NCBI GenBank assembly: GCA_028382965.1
Contig: JAOEUK010000011.1
Location: 1 to 56,908, forward strand
Reading direction: 5' to 3'
Origin: Candidatus Puniceispirillum sp.
Lineage (GTDB): Bacteria; Pseudomonadota; Alphaproteobacteria; Puniceispirillales; Puniceispirillaceae
Length of the DNA stretch: 56,908 bases
This document shows positions 1,637 through 7,769 of the stretch, one piece after another. The position numbers and the translations under genes were made by a program. The notes beneath the pieces were generated by a model. It searched no databases and was not told where the DNA came from. It saw only the letters and a list, made by a program, of their open reading frames with translations. How positions within the stretch are numbered: position 1 is the first letter of the stretch; each line of letters starts with the position of its first letter.

Positions 1637-2260
1637 TTAGATTGTAAAGGGGGGGGACGCTATGAGGGCATGTAAAAAGCTGGAAGCAGACGACCGCGCT
1701 GATAGAAGCCAAAAACATGGATTGGCATCGTTATCATCTGGACGCCTCACAATAATGGCCCCAAGATGCTCTATCATTGTTCGTGCTGTCGTGCCAACTG
1801 GCATTGCCGATGCGCTGCAATCAATAGGGCAGATGCGTTCTAATGTGCGGCGCACAAGCGGGCCGGTTAGCGCGAGAACAAGCCAAGCATCTGATTGGTC
1901 AGTGATCGACAACTGGTTTGATAATTTTTTGCCTAGTAGGCTATTTGCCGCATCAATAGGATCGACGCCGTCATTATAAAAACATAAAAACCATTGGCCA
2001 TGGGCGCTTGGCAGGAAAAGATAATTTTTCTCACCTCGACCCTCATGCGCCGTTACAGCATTTAGCTGGTCGCCAACGAATAATTTGAAAATCGCAGCTT
2101 TAAACTCTTCTTCATGGCTGGCAGAAGGTGTAACTGAAACCATAGACAAGTTGGTAATTTCAACAAGGCTTGTCCCATCAAGAATAATGCTATGGCCATC
2201 AAGAGGGCTAGACGCGGTCAAGGTGTAAGGAGTGTTTGTTTTGGGCGGAGTATTAGCCAT
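1637..2260 (-). CDS. soxG: Sarcosine oxidase subunit gamma
   Basis: Last gene of a soxBDAG operon. Heterotetrameric sarcosine oxidase demethylates sarcosine to glycine, passing the one-carbon unit to tetrahydrofolate and electrons to O2. The gamma subunit is a small structural/folate-side subunit related to the aminomethyltransferase fold. The 207-residue length fits the family, and segments such as LALTGPLVRRTLERICPID and AGAIIVRR-like text are gamma-type. Start chosen at the ATG at 2260: it overlaps the soxA stop by a few bases and has AAGGGG upstream, whereas the ATG at 2284 lies deeper inside soxA. The 3' end runs through an eight-base G tract (C tract on the coding strand), a spot to check for indel errors. 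Confidence 0.75.
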   Translation of the reverse strand: MANTPPKTNTPYTLTASSPLDGHSIILDGTSLVEITNLSMVSVTPSASHEEEFKAAIFKLFVGDQLNAVTAHEGRGEKNYLFLPSAHGQWFLCFYNDGVDPIDAANSLLGKKLSNQLSITDQSDAWLVLALTGPLVRRTLERICPIDCSASAMPVGTTARTMIEHLGAIIVRRPDDNDANPCFWLLSARSSASSFLHALIASPPFTI

Positions 2261-5210
2261 GCAAACGCACCCCTTCCGCATCAAGGAAATGCTGGCTGGT
2301 TAATTCAACCTTAATATCTTCATCAGCAAGTAGATTAACAGCCCGAACAATATCACCATGACGCTTGCTACCGCGGCGGATATATCCAAGCCCAATGAAG
2401 GTTTTCAAATGTGGTGAATAGGCAACAGATGTAACCCATCCTTCGTCATTTTCTGCTGTGCTATCTGCCCCAATCGCAATGAAATGGGCGCCAGCTGTAA
2501 GCGAAATAGCAGGGTCAACTGGTTTCAGGCCAACAAGTTCATAATCATCATCACGAACCAGTTCTGGGCGGCGGCTCAAAACAAGACCAATGGAGTCTTT
2601 TTTTTGTGACACCATTTGGCCTAGTCCCATTTGTCGCGCTGTTGTCTGGCCATTTATTTCGTTACCAGCCACATGGCCTTTTTCAATCCGCATCACGCCT
2701 AGCGCCTCGGTGCCATAGGCGGTTACGTTAAATTCCTCACCAGCAGCCATAAGGGTGTGCATCATCGATTCACCATAACGTGCGGGAACAGCGATTTCAT
2801 AAGCCAATTCGCCAGAGAATGAAATGCGGAAGAGCCGTGCCTTTATCCCACCACAAATATTTATTACACCACATGCCATAAAGGGAAAAGCATCATTTGA
2901 AATGTTATCTGCTGGATCAATCAGTTTTTCCAGCAGGCTACGTGCATTTGGTCCGGCAACCGCAAATTGTGCATATTGCTCGGTTACCGAAATCAGGTGC
3001 ACGTCAAGATTAGGCCACAAACATTGATGACAAAATTCAAGATGCCTGAATACGCCTACTGCATTGGCAGTCGTGGTGGTCATTAAATAATGCGTCTCGC
3101 CAAGTCGCGCAGTTGTTCCATCATCCATTACCATGCCATCTTCTCGAAGCATCAAACCATAGCGTGTTTTGCCAATAGGTAATTTGGCAAATCCGTTGGT
3201 ATAGACATGGTTCAAAAATGCACCAGAGTCATTCCCTTGAACATCAATTTTGCCAAGTGTAGAAACATCACAAATGCCAACTGATTTTCGCACTGCTAGA
3301 ACTTCGCGATCAACTGATTGCCTCCATGCAGACTCTCCTGATTTTGGGTACCATTGGGCACGGAGCCAAGTGCCGGCTTCAATAAATTTAGCACCTTGTT
3401 TAACTGCCCACTTATGTGATGGTGTATGGCGTATTGGACGAAAATTTTTGCCACGACTGCGTCCTGCAAAGGCTGCAATTGGAACAGGTGTATAAGGAGG
3501 ACGGAAAATGGTAGTCCCAGTTTCGGCAATCGTTTTTCCTGATATGTCAGCAAGAATTGCGAGCCCTGGAATATTCGCAATTTTGCCCTGATCAGTTGCC
3601 ATGCCAAGTGTTGTATAGCGCTTTAGATGCTCAACTGAACGGAACCCCTCGCGGTACGCCAACTCTATGTCCTTAACATTAACATCATGTTGAAAATCAA
3701 CAAATGCCTTATCTTTACTGTTTTTGACATGCCAAAATGGTTGAAGAGCAAAGTTTTCATCCGTAGCGTGCGGCGCTTCCATGTTGGCTGGTTTCTTGCC
3801 AAAATCACACAAAACCTTCTGGCCTGCTTCAATGCCTGCTTTTAAACAGGATGCAAGGGTCATAGTGCCGCCGGCTGCCCCAGCAACAATCATTCCTTTG
3901 GGCAGGGTGTTTCCTGGTACAAAGCCAGCAATCTTATCATTCCAGACGGGCCTGCCACGTTGATGACAGGTCAGATGTACATTCGGCGACCACCCACCAG
4001 ATACGGCAAGGCAGTCAGCTGGAATAATGGTTCCATTGTTCAGTAAAACACTATTTAAGCCAAGCCGGCCTGAACTATTGACAACATGCCCACCAAGTAT
4101 GCAAGGCACACCGGCTAGTGCTGTTTTCTGGCAATCTGGTCGGCTGTCGATAATGGCAGTAACTTCAACCCCTGCATTGTGTAAGTCTTCAGCGGTTGAC
4201 CATCCATCATCATTGTTGGTGAAAATAGCAACGCGTTTTCCAGGGCTAACGCCAAAGCGGTTTGTATAGGTTCGAACTGCCCCTGCCAGCATGATCCCCG
4301 GCCGGTCATTATTGCTAAAGGCAATAGGCCGTTCGGTTGCGCCGGCTGCCAAAATGTGTCGCCGGCTGCGGATATGCCAAAAAATGTGCCTAACTGATCC
4401 ATTGGCATTATGCTCATTCACGCGTTCTAATGCTCCATAACAGCCATGATCAAAAGCGCCAAAAACAGTGGTCCTGGAAAGAATCCTTACATTATCCATT
4501 GCGCCAAGCGCACAAAGGGTTTCAGCCGCAAAAATGGCGCTGCCAATGCCGTTTATTTCGGCCGTATCGGCGTTCAACCTGCCGCCAAGGCAGAAATCTT
4601 CATCGGCCAAAATAACCTGCAGGCCAGATCTGGCCGCAGTAAGTGTAGCCATTAGGCCACTTGGACCACTACCAGTGACCAGCAGATCACAATGCAGATA
4701 GCCCTTTTCATATCGGTCTGGGTCTGGTTCGCCAGACAACCGCCCAAGTCCCGCTAATTTGCGGATGGCTGGTTCATAAAATTTTTCCCAAAAAGCCGCT
4801 GGCCACATGAATGTCTTGTAGTAAAACCCGGCTCCAAGCATTGATGATAGCAGATCATTAATGGCCATAAAGTCAAAAGACAGAAGCCCAAGCTTAGTCT
4901 GGCTTCTTGCTTTCAAACCATCAAAAAGCTGCGTGGTGGTGGCACGGCAATTCGGGTCCTCAGATGCTCCGCTACCAACCGTCACCAGCGCGTTTGGTTC
5001 CTCTGACCCAGCGGTCAAAATGCCGCGTGGTCGGTGATATTTGAAACTGCGTCCGACAAGGCGTACATTATTTGCTAAAAGAGCAGATGCCAATGTGTCA
5101 CCAGAAAATCCTAAATAATGCTTCCCATCAAAGTGAAAACTAAACTGTCTGTTCCGATCAACTAGCCCGCCAGAAATACGGTTCGTTTGCGAGCATTTTC
5201 CCTTTGTCAT
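2253..5210 (-). CDS. soxA: Sarcosine oxidase subunit alpha
   Basis: Large subunit (985 residues, near the usual 960-1000) of heterotetrameric sarcosine oxidase. The N-terminus has the ferredoxin-like segment seen in this family (GFSGDTLASALLANNVRLVG, then FKYHRPRGI). It is followed by a dinucleotide-binding Rossmann motif in LLVTGSGPSGLMATLTAARS, a region with ATERPIAFSNNDRPGIMLAG, and a C-terminal aminomethyltransferase (GCV_T-like) domain with GDVSTLGKID-like and ALGVMRIEKGH segments that binds folate. By family knowledge it binds NAD+ and contributes to the FMN site at the alpha/beta interface. Its ATG overlaps the soxD stop by four bases, indicating translational coupling. Confidence 0.93.
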   Translation of the reverse strand: MTKGKCSQTNRISGGLVDRNRQFSFHFDGKHYLGFSGDTLASALLANNVRLVGRSFKYHRPRGILTAGSEEPNALVTVGSGASEDPNCRATTTQLFDGLKARSQTKLGLLSFDFMAINDLLSSMLGAGFYYKTFMWPAAFWEKFYEPAIRKLAGLGRLSGEPDPDRYEKGYLHCDLLVTGSGPSGLMATLTAARSGLQVILADEDFCLGGRLNADTAEINGIGSAIFAAETLCALGAMDNVRILSRTTVFGAFDHGCYGALERVNEHNANGSVRHIFWHIRSRRHILAAGATERPIAFSNNDRPGIMLAGAVRTYTNRFGVSPGKRVAIFTNNDDGWSTAEDLHNAGVEVTAIIDSRPDCQKTALAGVPCILGGHVVNSSGRLGLNSVLLNNGTIIPADCLAVSGGWSPNVHLTCHQRGRPVWNDKIAGFVPGNTLPKGMIVAGAAGGTMTLASCLKAGIEAGQKVLCDFGKKPANMEAPHATDENFALQPFWHVKNSKDKAFVDFQHDVNVKDIELAYREGFRSVEHLKRYTTLGMATDQGKIANIPGLAILADISGKTIAETGTTIFRPPYTPVPIAAFAGRSRGKNFRPIRHTPSHKWAVKQGAKFIEAGTWLRAQWYPKSGESAWRQSVDREVLAVRKSVGICDVSTLGKIDVQGNDSGAFLNHVYTNGFAKLPIGKTRYGLMLREDGMVMDDGTTARLGETHYLMTTTTANAVGVFRHLEFCHQCLWPNLDVHLISVTEQYAQFAVAGPNARSLLEKLIDPADNISNDAFPFMACGVINICGGIKARLFRISFSGELAYEIAVPARYGESMMHTLMAAGEEFNVTAYGTEALGVMRIEKGHVAGNEINGQTTARQMGLGQMVSQKKDSIGLVLSRRPELVRDDDYELVGLKPVDPAISLTAGAHFIAIGADSTAENDEGWVTSVAYSPHLKTFIGLGYIRRGSKRHGDIVRAVNLLADEDIKVELTSQHFLDAEGVRLHG

Positions 5211-5557
5211 CTGTTTTGGCCCTTGGACTTAAGCTTTTCTCGTGTTTTTTTCGTGTTTAATGTTTTGGTCACTTTTTTTGATTTGGCAGCTAAGGCTACA
5301 TTGCTAGCAAGGGAAACATCCACCACATCATGTGTTATTGTATCGCGTGTCACAACAAGCCATGACCTATCCCCTTGTTCGTGAAACCACAGCTCACGGT
5401 GAAGCCCTGCCGGATTATCACGCAAATACACGTAGGTATAAAACTCATCATCGGCATTATCTGCCTGCCAGTCAGGCCGGTTCAACATGCTCGCATCGCC
5501 AAGGATAGTAAATTCCGCGGCGTCCCTTGGGCCAAGCTTGGGATGATTGATTATCAT
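5207..5557 (-). CDS. soxD: Sarcosine oxidase subunit delta, zinc-ligand cysteines substituted
   Basis: 116 residues between soxB and soxA, the normal place for the small delta subunit. The family signature is recognisable: NHPKLGPRDAAEF near the N-terminus, YLRDNPAGLHRELWFHEQGD in the middle, and WLVVTRDTITHDV after it. In characterised SoxD proteins a CPxCG motif, a histidine and a GCR cysteine hold a zinc ion. Here the CPxCG reads HPKLG and GCR reads GDR, so no cysteine is left although the rest of the fold is kept. The basic tail (LNTKKTREKLKSKGQNR) is typical. It ends in a four-base overlap with soxA. Confidence 0.85.
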   Translation of the reverse strand: MIINHPKLGPRDAAEFTILGDASMLNRPDWQADNADDEFYTYVYLRDNPAGLHRELWFHEQGDRSWLVVTRDTITHDVVDVSLASNVALAAKSKKVTKTLNTKKTREKLKSKGQNR

Positions 5558-5585: not shown

Positions 5586-6836
5586 TCAATGCAAGTTAGG
5601 CTGAGCACCAGCCCCGCGTTCGTCAAGCATTGCCCCGCATCTAAATCGGTCGAGGCGAAGTTTTTTTGCTACTTCATGTGGCTCGTCACGCGCCAGAAGA
5701 TGCGCAAAACAAAGACCTGAGGCTGGGGTGGCCTTGAACCCGCCGTAGCACCAACCCGCATTTAAAAACAACTGGTCAATTGGTGTCTTGTCAATGATTG
5801 GTGAGCCATCCATTGACATATCCATAATTCCACCCCAGTTCCGAAGTATCCGCGCTCGGCCGATCATTGGCATGATTGCCATACCGCTTTGACACACATC
5901 TTCAAAAACTGGAAGATTGCCACGTTGTGCATAGCTGTTGTAGCCGTCAATATTTCCACCAAAGACAAGTCCTCCCTTATCTGATTGGCTGATGTAAAAA
6001 TGCCCTGCACCAAAAGTAATCACGCCAGGAATAACTGGTTTTAAGCCCTCACTGACAAAGGCTTGCAAAACATGACTTTCGATTGGTAGCCTTAGCCCAG
6101 CTTTCGCCATAACCCTGCTGGTTGATCCAGCAACTGCAACGCCAACCTTGCCTGCAGTAATTGTGCCACGGCTAGTTTTAACACCGACACAAGCTCCATC
6201 CTTGATGATAAAGTCTGTAACCTCGCAATTCTGGATAATATCGACACCTCGTTGATCTGCAGCACGAGCGTAGCCCCATGCAACAGCATCATGACGGGCA
6301 GTTCCTGCTCGTGCTTGCAGCAAACCTCCCATTACAGGAAAGCGGGCATTTTCAAAATCCAAAAAAGGGCACATGTTACGCAATTGTTCTAGTTTCAAAA
6401 GCTTGGCATCAGCACCATGAAGGCGCATTGCATTGCCACGCCTGACATAAGCATCACGTTGTGAGTCTGAATGATACAAATTGATAATTCCACGCTGTGA
6501 TATCATCGCATTATAGTTTAAGTCCTGTTCAAGACCTTCCCATAGTTTTAACGATTCCTCATAAAATGGCTCATTCCCATCAAGAAGATAGTTGGATCTA
6601 ATAATAGTAGTATTGCGACCAATATTACCTGATCCAATCCAACCTTTTTCTAGAACAGCAATATTGGACATGCCGTAGCGGCTTGCGAGGTAAAAGGCTG
6701 TCGCAAGTCCATGCCCACCACCACCAATAATTATAATTTGATAATTTTTTTTAGGTTCAGGTTCACGCCAAGCCGGCTTCCATCCCTGATTGCCAGTCAG
6801 CGCTTGGTTGATTAATGACCAGATTGAATACCGCAT
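5586..6836 (-). CDS. soxB: Sarcosine oxidase subunit beta (FAD/FMN)
   Basis: First gene of the soxBDAG operon. The catalytic beta subunit oxidises sarcosine on FAD and carries covalently bound FMN. The dinucleotide motif is IIIIGGGGHGLATAFYLA, and the RHDAVAWGYAR segment contains the histidine that in characterised enzymes carries FMN. The C-terminus has WGGIMDMSMDGSPII and NAGWCYGGFKATPASG. The frame is open upstream to 7001, but the ATG at 6836 is chosen because it is preceded by TAGGGTAG at good spacing and gives 416 residues, the usual length; the upstream extension has no family resemblance. A 28-base gap separates it from soxD. Confidence 0.92.
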   Translation of the reverse strand: MRYSIWSLINQALTGNQGWKPAWREPEPKKNYQIIIIGGGGHGLATAFYLASRYGMSNIAVLEKGWIGSGNIGRNTTIIRSNYLLDGNEPFYEESLKLWEGLEQDLNYNAMISQRGIINLYHSDSQRDAYVRRGNAMRLHGADAKLLKLEQLRNMCPFLDFENARFPVMGGLLQARAGTARHDAVAWGYARAADQRGVDIIQNCEVTDFIIKDGACVGVKTSRGTITAGKVGVAVAGSTSRVMAKAGLRLPIESHVLQAFVSEGLKPVIPGVITFGAGHFYISQSDKGGLVFGGNIDGYNSYAQRGNLPVFEDVCQSGMAIMPMIGRARILRNWGGIMDMSMDGSPIIDKTPIDQLFLNAGWCYGGFKATPASGLCFAHLLARDEPHEVAKKLRLDRFRCGAMLDERGAGAQPNLH

Positions 6837-7076: not shown

Positions 7077-7769
7077 TCATTCGTTTTTGTAACCTCCAAG
7101 TATCGAAAACCGTCGAAGAAAAGCTTTAGCTGCATCATTGGGTGACTGGGGTTTGATGTTAATGTTGGCTGGTGTGCCTGAAGGCTTTATAAAAATTTTT
7201 GCGGCTTCTTTTTCTGAAAAGCCTGCAAGTTGTGTTGCCTCCAGCCAAGCTGCCATACGGTCAGCTCGTTTGATTGTGCGTCGTACATGCTCAGGAAGAA
7301 CTGGCGGCAGAGCAAATCGAATATTGATGGCCCGGTCAAGTCCAGCTTCTATGTCGCGATAGATGCCACCAAGAACATGTTTAAATGGAGTTATCAAGTC
7401 ACCAATTACATATTCAGGTGCATCATGAAGTAAAGCAGCTAGATGCCATTTCGGATCAAGTTTTGGAGCGTTTTCTCTAACAAGACGTTCCACCGTCACA
7501 CTATGTTGAGCAACTGAGAGGCTGTGGTTTCCGTAGGTTTGTCCATTCCAGCGGCTAACTCTTGCCAGCCCATAAGCAATATCTTCGATTTCAATATCAA
7601 GTGGTGAAGGGTCTAAAATATCAAGGCGCCTGCCGCTTAACATTCTTTGCCATGCCCGGTCTTTAACTTCCCCTTTTTTAATTTTCGCAGGAGCAAGTTT
7701 TTTAAAGGTGGTCTTTGTTTTTTTTTGTAAATTTTCAGCAGGTTTTTGCATCAAGCCGGTCTCAATCAT
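7077..7769 (-). CDS. HD-domain phosphohydrolase (YfbR-like)
   Basis: 230 residues. The HD motif is in HLAALLHDAPEYVIGD, with an upstream histidine in HSLSVAQHSVTVE, matching the metal-binding H...HD...D layout of the HD superfamily, and the protein resembles the COG1896/YfbR group whose studied members hydrolyse 5'-deoxynucleotides. The segment RMLSGRRLDILDPSPLDIEI is characteristic of alphaproteobacterial members. The first 40 residues are lysine-rich and poorly conserved, so a start at 7751 or later is possible. It lies upstream of soxB on the same strand but with a 240-base gap, so it is probably not part of that operon. Confidence 0.75.
   Translation of the reverse strand: MIETGLMQKPAENLQKKTKTTFKKLAPAKIKKGEVKDRAWQRMLSGRRLDILDPSPLDIEIEDIAYGLARVSRWNGQTYGNHSLSVAQHSVTVERLVRENAPKLDPKWHLAALLHDAPEYVIGDLITPFKHVLGGIYRDIEAGLDRAINIRFALPPVLPEHVRRTIKRADRMAAWLEATQLAGFSEKEAAKIFIKPSGTPANINIKPQSPNDAAKAFLRRFSILGGYKNE

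Follow-up and report, generated by a model that had tools for sequence, protein, structure and literature searches.

The window, by which we mean the whole analysed stretch of 56,908 nucleotides from Candidatus Puniceispirillum sp. (contig JAOEUK010000011.1), carries the genes soxB, soxD, soxA, and soxG in this order on a single strand (minus), where the end of soxD shares 4 bases with the start of soxA. The gene order soxBDAG is reported for Corynebacterium (PMC3691474). The features of the operon are given below, where HLHD stands for His, Leu, His, and Asp at the four positions that hold Cys, Cys, His, and Cys in SoxD of the CCHC type.

5586..6836, minus strand: soxB, beta subunit (TIGR01373, 691.9 bits, cut-off 529; 1vrq_B, E = 7.7e-137)
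5207..5557, minus strand: soxD, HLHD type, 116 aa (open reading frame; PF04267; nearest solved chains 2gag_D and 1vrq_D)
5534..5545, minus strand: first knuckle of SoxD, H5-P6-K7-L8, replacing Cys-Pro-x-Cys (codons; H5 and L8 in 99/99 operons of the SoxA branch)
5369..5383, minus strand: second knuckle of SoxD, H59-E60-Q61-G62-D63, replacing His-x-x-Gly-Cys (codons; H59 and D63 in 99/99 operons of the SoxA branch)
5207..5305, minus strand: C-terminal tail of SoxD, Lys-rich, about 32 aa beyond the domain, predicted helix (tail comparison; AlphaFold2 model)
2253..5210, minus strand: soxA, alpha subunit (TIGR01372, 1337.9 bits, cut-off 1164; 1vrq_A, E = 1.5e-196)
1637..2260, minus strand: soxG, gamma subunit (TIGR01375, 42.3 bits, below the cut-off of 143.95; place after soxA)

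The starts chosen for soxB and soxG are those at MRYSIWSL and MANTPPK, respectively. Genes for the alpha, beta, and gamma subunits lie beside the delta gene: the alpha and beta subunits pass the thresholds of TIGR01372 and TIGR01373, while the gamma subunit scores below that of TIGR01375, and has no Pfam match, yet is encoded in the proper place. The original prediction described the operon as functional in appearance, and this description holds, with four intact genes found in order on one strand. As scanned, the genes adjoining the operon code for TPR, HD, and flavin-reductase proteins, and none is of the glycine-betaine kind. The HD-domain gene (7077-7769) precedes soxB in the same orientation; members of the cluster to which this gene belongs were found next to 20 HLHD loci and next to none of the CCHC type. 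A tRNA-Leu gene (taa; 1466-1550) is found just beyond soxG.

The soxD product is assigned to its family by a PF04267 score of 97.7 bits (Pfam cut-off 27) and by the position of the gene between soxB and soxA; its score against the NCBIfam soxD model TIGR01374 (81.3 bits) is below the curated cut-off of 116.5. The nearest solved chains are 2gag_D and the delta subunit of Corynebacterium sp. U-96 (1vrq_D), both with E of about 7e-10. The window SoxD resembles these in sequence family, predicted fold, and the presence of His59, and differs from them in that three cysteines are replaced by His, Leu, and Asp. In the alignment to 1vrq_D, residues H5, L8, H59, and D63 are opposite Cys6, Cys9, His59, and Cys63, which are reported to be the zinc ligands of that chain. 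The four ligand positions are thus occupied by His, Leu, His, and Asp and not by Cys, Cys, His, and Cys. The corresponding codons on the minus strand are CAT for H5 (5543-5545), CTT for L8 (5534-5536), CAC for H59 (5381-5383), and GAT for D63 (5369-5371). Alignment to 2gag_D and 1vrq_D and the codons agree, which confirms the initial claim that all three zinc cysteines are absent from an otherwise normal SoxD. No description of a cysteine-free SoxD was found among the papers listed, at the level of titles and beginnings of abstracts, a search that mostly covered journals outside subscription.

An AlphaFold2 model of the window SoxD (mean pLDDT 83) matches the solved SoxD chains in Foldseek with E = 1.2e-4. 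It superimposes on 2gag_D with Z = 8.7 (rmsd 4.1 Å, 89 residues) and on 1vrq_D with Z = 8.6 (rmsd 3.6 Å, 87 residues), and other folds match weakly, the next best after the two SoxD chains having a Z of 5.5. The model thus points to a SoxD fold that is kept in the HLHD form. The tail is modelled as a helix (residues 84-113), with the confidence declining to 54 at its end. Lys-rich tails extending 32-53 residues past the domain occur in the window SoxD and its nearest kin (L107-L111, L113, L114, L252, L257, L265, L267), the median for HLHD sequences being 11. Several of these tails have KKTAAKK-like repeats, and their composition is reminiscent of histone H1 tails.

The four site positions were compared in 356 SoxD sequences from 357 stretches of DNA, one of which (L246) is a placeholder without SoxD. 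The site is of the CCHC type in 186 sequences, HLHD in 147, and C-x-H-S/T in 22, and one sequence is partial; mixtures of CCHC and HLHD were not encountered among the 356 sequences. The HLHD and CCHC groups are defined by these four letters, so that group values of 100% hold by construction. Independent evidence for the invariance of the site is provided by trees of SoxA and SoxB, from which SoxD is absent, and by sequence identity to the window SoxD when the four site columns are disregarded. At 65% identity or more, there are 106 different sequences, and every one is HLHD; between 60% and 65%, there are 21 HLHD and 2 CCHC sequences, and below 60% there is no HLHD sequence. All of the best 80 of 498 confirmed matches to the window SoxD (L107-L186) are HLHD, and these contribute 80 of the HLHD loci, so that sampling is uneven. 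The survey took in part of the matches from the genome searches and includes some genes twice.

Carriers of HLHD among these best 80 of 498 matches are Candidatus Puniceispirillum, Leisingera, Ruegeria, Roseovarius, Kiloniella, Hoeflea, Mesorhizobium, and MAGs of Rhizobiaceae. Three plasmid records from the Roseobacter group also carry the type. At least 38 of 61 genomes (that of the window and 60 relatives) have an HLHD SoxD. Among 386 genomes sampled evenly from the class, a full-length HLHD SoxD was detected in 24 and a partial one in a further genome (G327); no SoxD besides the HLHD type was found in three of these 24 (G160, G215, G330). A MAG named Granulosicoccaceae (L178; Gammaproteobacteria) has an HLHD operon, reflecting either transfer or a binning error. 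In the 20 plasmid records listed, SoxD proteins of the HLHD subfamily bear no annotation more specific than "sarcosine oxidase subunit delta".

A branch with a support of 99 in the SoxA tree (191 operons) separates the 99 HLHD rows from every other row, and the SoxB tree likewise places all 99 on one side of a branch (support 98). The partial SoxD (L089) is omitted from these trees, and of 196 operons, 5 were left out because their SoxA was identical to another. A mixture-model SoxA tree, restricted to 83 hand-picked rows of the 191, has 41 of 41 HLHD rows on one side of a branch (SH-aLRT 97). The SoxA trees were flagged for long branches, including the C-x-H-S/T rows, and some rows, HLHD rows among them, have an unusual amino acid composition. 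The HLHD rows are surrounded by CCHC rows. Three C-x-H-S/T rows are included in the trees, where they group on a branch of their own. These unrooted trees suggest a single origin of HLHD, in the ancestor of a mostly alphaproteobacterial SoxBDAG subfamily. The breadth of CCHC, which includes the solved chains, suggests that CCHC is the older type.

Within the 99 operons of the HLHD branch, the four site residues are invariant while synonymous codons vary: all six Leu codons are used for L8, both His codons for H5 and for H59, and both Asp codons for D63. Site invariance alone is a weak argument, because many other SoxD positions are also invariant (35 columns in the HLHD subfamily, according to the 69-row alignment A1). 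We consider that the conservation of HLHD reflects a constraint held by selection, which says nothing of what the residues do. HLHD SoxD differs from CCHC SoxD in general by E60 and by residue 24, and in the kin of the window organism also by the Lys-rich tail. Of the 147 HLHD sequences, 142 have Glu as residue 60, and the five with Gln make up one sub-branch (L263, L266, L277, L280, L282); the share of Glu among CCHC sequences is 0.02. At position 24, 94% of HLHD sequences have Leu; the alignment is gapped there in 143 of the 180 CCHC rows. With the four site columns left aside, Ile, Leu, Val, and Met together account for a share of 0.210 in 127 HLHD sequences, compared to 0.169 in 24 near CCHC sequences (drawn from 25 hand-picked loci) and 0.170 in 180 CCHC sequences. 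This gain is partly present in the near CCHC sequences already (L19 in 13/24, V68 in 11/24, L56 in 9/24).

The genome of the window encodes a second, canonical SoxBDAG of the CCHC type (L003; G000, contig C37), with the same four subunits and the same gene order as the window operon. Its SoxD retains all four ligands and is 39% identical to the window SoxD. The nearest CCHC sequences (L088, L098, L099, L091, L090) are 56-62% identical to the window SoxD outside the site columns and nearly match it in their second half. They retain CCHC, and at position 60 they carry Gly, Ala, or Ser, where the window SoxD has Glu. Outside the class of the window, 22 loci (L324-L341, L347, L352, L354, L355; one gene was entered twice) have SoxD with the pattern C-[N/I/L]-H-[S/T]. 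As in HLHD, SoxD persists with His59 in place but without its full set of zinc cysteines; unlike in HLHD, the first Cys is retained (one row has a gap here), the second is replaced by Asn, Ile, or Leu, and the third by Ser or Thr. SoxD appears to tolerate the loss of the site, since this lineage has lost it in another way.

A sequencing error, a pseudogene, or the drift of a subunit that is no longer needed would be a very unlikely explanation of HLHD, having only the low NCBIfam score in its favour (81.3 versus 116.5). The original prediction named cysteines in a corrected sequence as a finding that would refute it; such a correction is contradicted by identical replacements in 147 loci with 127 different domain sequences. 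Within the branch, codons change and residues do not, the operon is intact, and the three genomes with HLHD as the only SoxD found argue against a dispensable subunit. On the sequences compared, HLHD is a fixed signature of a SoxD subfamily, and neither error nor decay. It is improbable that a partner subunit supplies new ligands and so keeps zinc at an interface of SoxD with SoxA or SoxB. A shared site is possible in principle, given that SoxD is part of the complex, but we found no SoxA or SoxB column in which a residue shared by at least 95% of the 99 HLHD operons is replaced by a different one in at least 80% of the 89 CCHC operons, a screen that is blind to ligands common to both groups or located at positions variable in CCHC. 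In SoxB, two active-site residues, the Lys of GGFK and a His opposite the flavin-linked one, are conserved in 99/99 HLHD and 89/89 CCHC operons, and apart from SoxD the enzyme has an ordinary appearance.

We incline, by a modest degree of confidence, to the interpretation that the zinc-ribbon site was rebuilt once, long ago, with loss of the thiolate zinc, and that the ribbon is held together by a polar network and by hydrophobic packing. The change from Cys, Cys, His, Cys to His, Leu, His, Asp would have occurred once, in the ancestor of the SoxBDAG subfamily, and would have been kept from then on. HLHD SoxD would no longer bind thiolate zinc. The knuckle loops may be tied without metal by polar contacts among H5, H59, D63, and probably E60, with L8 occupying the space vacated by metal and second cysteine, and a more hydrophobic core may add to the stability of the metal-free domain. 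SoxD would retain its structural role in the complex, and the enzyme would work without that zinc. There is precedent in that zinc ribbons can lose their metal with a compensating strengthening of hydrophobic packing, as described in PMC5906684, where SoxD (1VRQ_D) is treated as an example of a zinc ribbon. The same source describes the Cren7/Sul7 chromatin proteins as zinc ribbons without metal chelation and with stronger hydrophobic packing, which resembles the state proposed here for HLHD; unlike SoxD, these are archaeal DNA-binding proteins and not oxidase subunits.

Several points count against a metal-free ribbon. Two His, Asp, and E60 can bind metals, and a new metal site also predicts strict invariance; the hydrophobic gain is partly shared with near CCHC sequences, and the rmsd of the model to the solved chains is 3.6-4.1 Å. 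It is possible, though in our view less probable, that the site was converted, with H5, H59, and D63 (plus E60 or water) binding zinc, iron, or manganese without thiolates. All three candidate ligands are present in 99/99 operons of the branch, and E60 is typical of HLHD. Moreover, two site positions vary in the C-x-H-S/T lineage (N/I/L and S/T), for which a plain loss is presumed. However, a structural metal site usually has four ligands; only three remain here, as an invariant Leu stands where the fourth would be. His and Asp also reach further than Cys, so that the loops would need to shift. A converted His-His-Asp site would explain the invariance just as well, and the lack of a fourth ligand and the invariant Leu speak against it only mildly. 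The stricter proposition that a single conversion produced a thiol-free metal site of His, His, and Asp (plus Glu60), which a large subfamily has strictly retained, we regard as doubtful while still worth considering. If true, a thiol-free site would lie inside a type of enzyme that makes hydrogen peroxide and is able to release formaldehyde.

Two candidate driving forces were considered. Marine zinc scarcity is unsupported, because the genome of the window retains a CCHC copy. Oxidant-proofing would be another, but CCHC paralogues with the same presumed chemistry coexist.

The enzyme with the HLHD subunit is likely an N-demethylase of the heterotetrameric sarcosine oxidase type, acting on an N-methyl amino acid. 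The CCHC operon from the same genome (L003) adjoins an MTTB-family gene and a gene for a fused FAD-oxidoreductase/GCV_T protein of the dimethylglycine dehydrogenase kind. These neighbours are likely glycine-betaine demethylation genes, and the CCHC copy is therefore the likelier sarcosine oxidase of that pathway. For the HLHD paralogue, a substrate other than sarcosine is possible. A GlxA/AraC-type regulator is found near HLHD operons and has a GbdR-like profile match of 236 bits, below the cut-off of 480. Such a GbdR-like regulator is encoded within 7 kb at 52 of 90 HLHD loci with enough flanking sequence, versus 7 of 84 CCHC loci; when each different SoxD sequence is counted once, the numbers are 49/85 and 7/83. 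None is found at the window locus, which was counted regardless of its flank. In three plasmids, the region downstream of the HLHD operon encodes a homologue of this regulator (E = 2e-37 or better), a LysR regulator, an aldehyde dehydrogenase, and a dipeptidase, and in two of the three also a BCCT transporter.

HLHD can serve as a simple marker for its SoxBDAG subfamily. If the ribbon is indeed metal-free, zinc is probably not essential for this enzyme family in the HLHD group. The two operons of the window's genome represent a natural experiment, in which the complex exists with and without the thiolate site, both intact in one genome, while a second, different loss has taken place elsewhere. 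A comparison of the HLHD, CCHC, and C-x-H-S/T forms would reveal what the metal of SoxD does.
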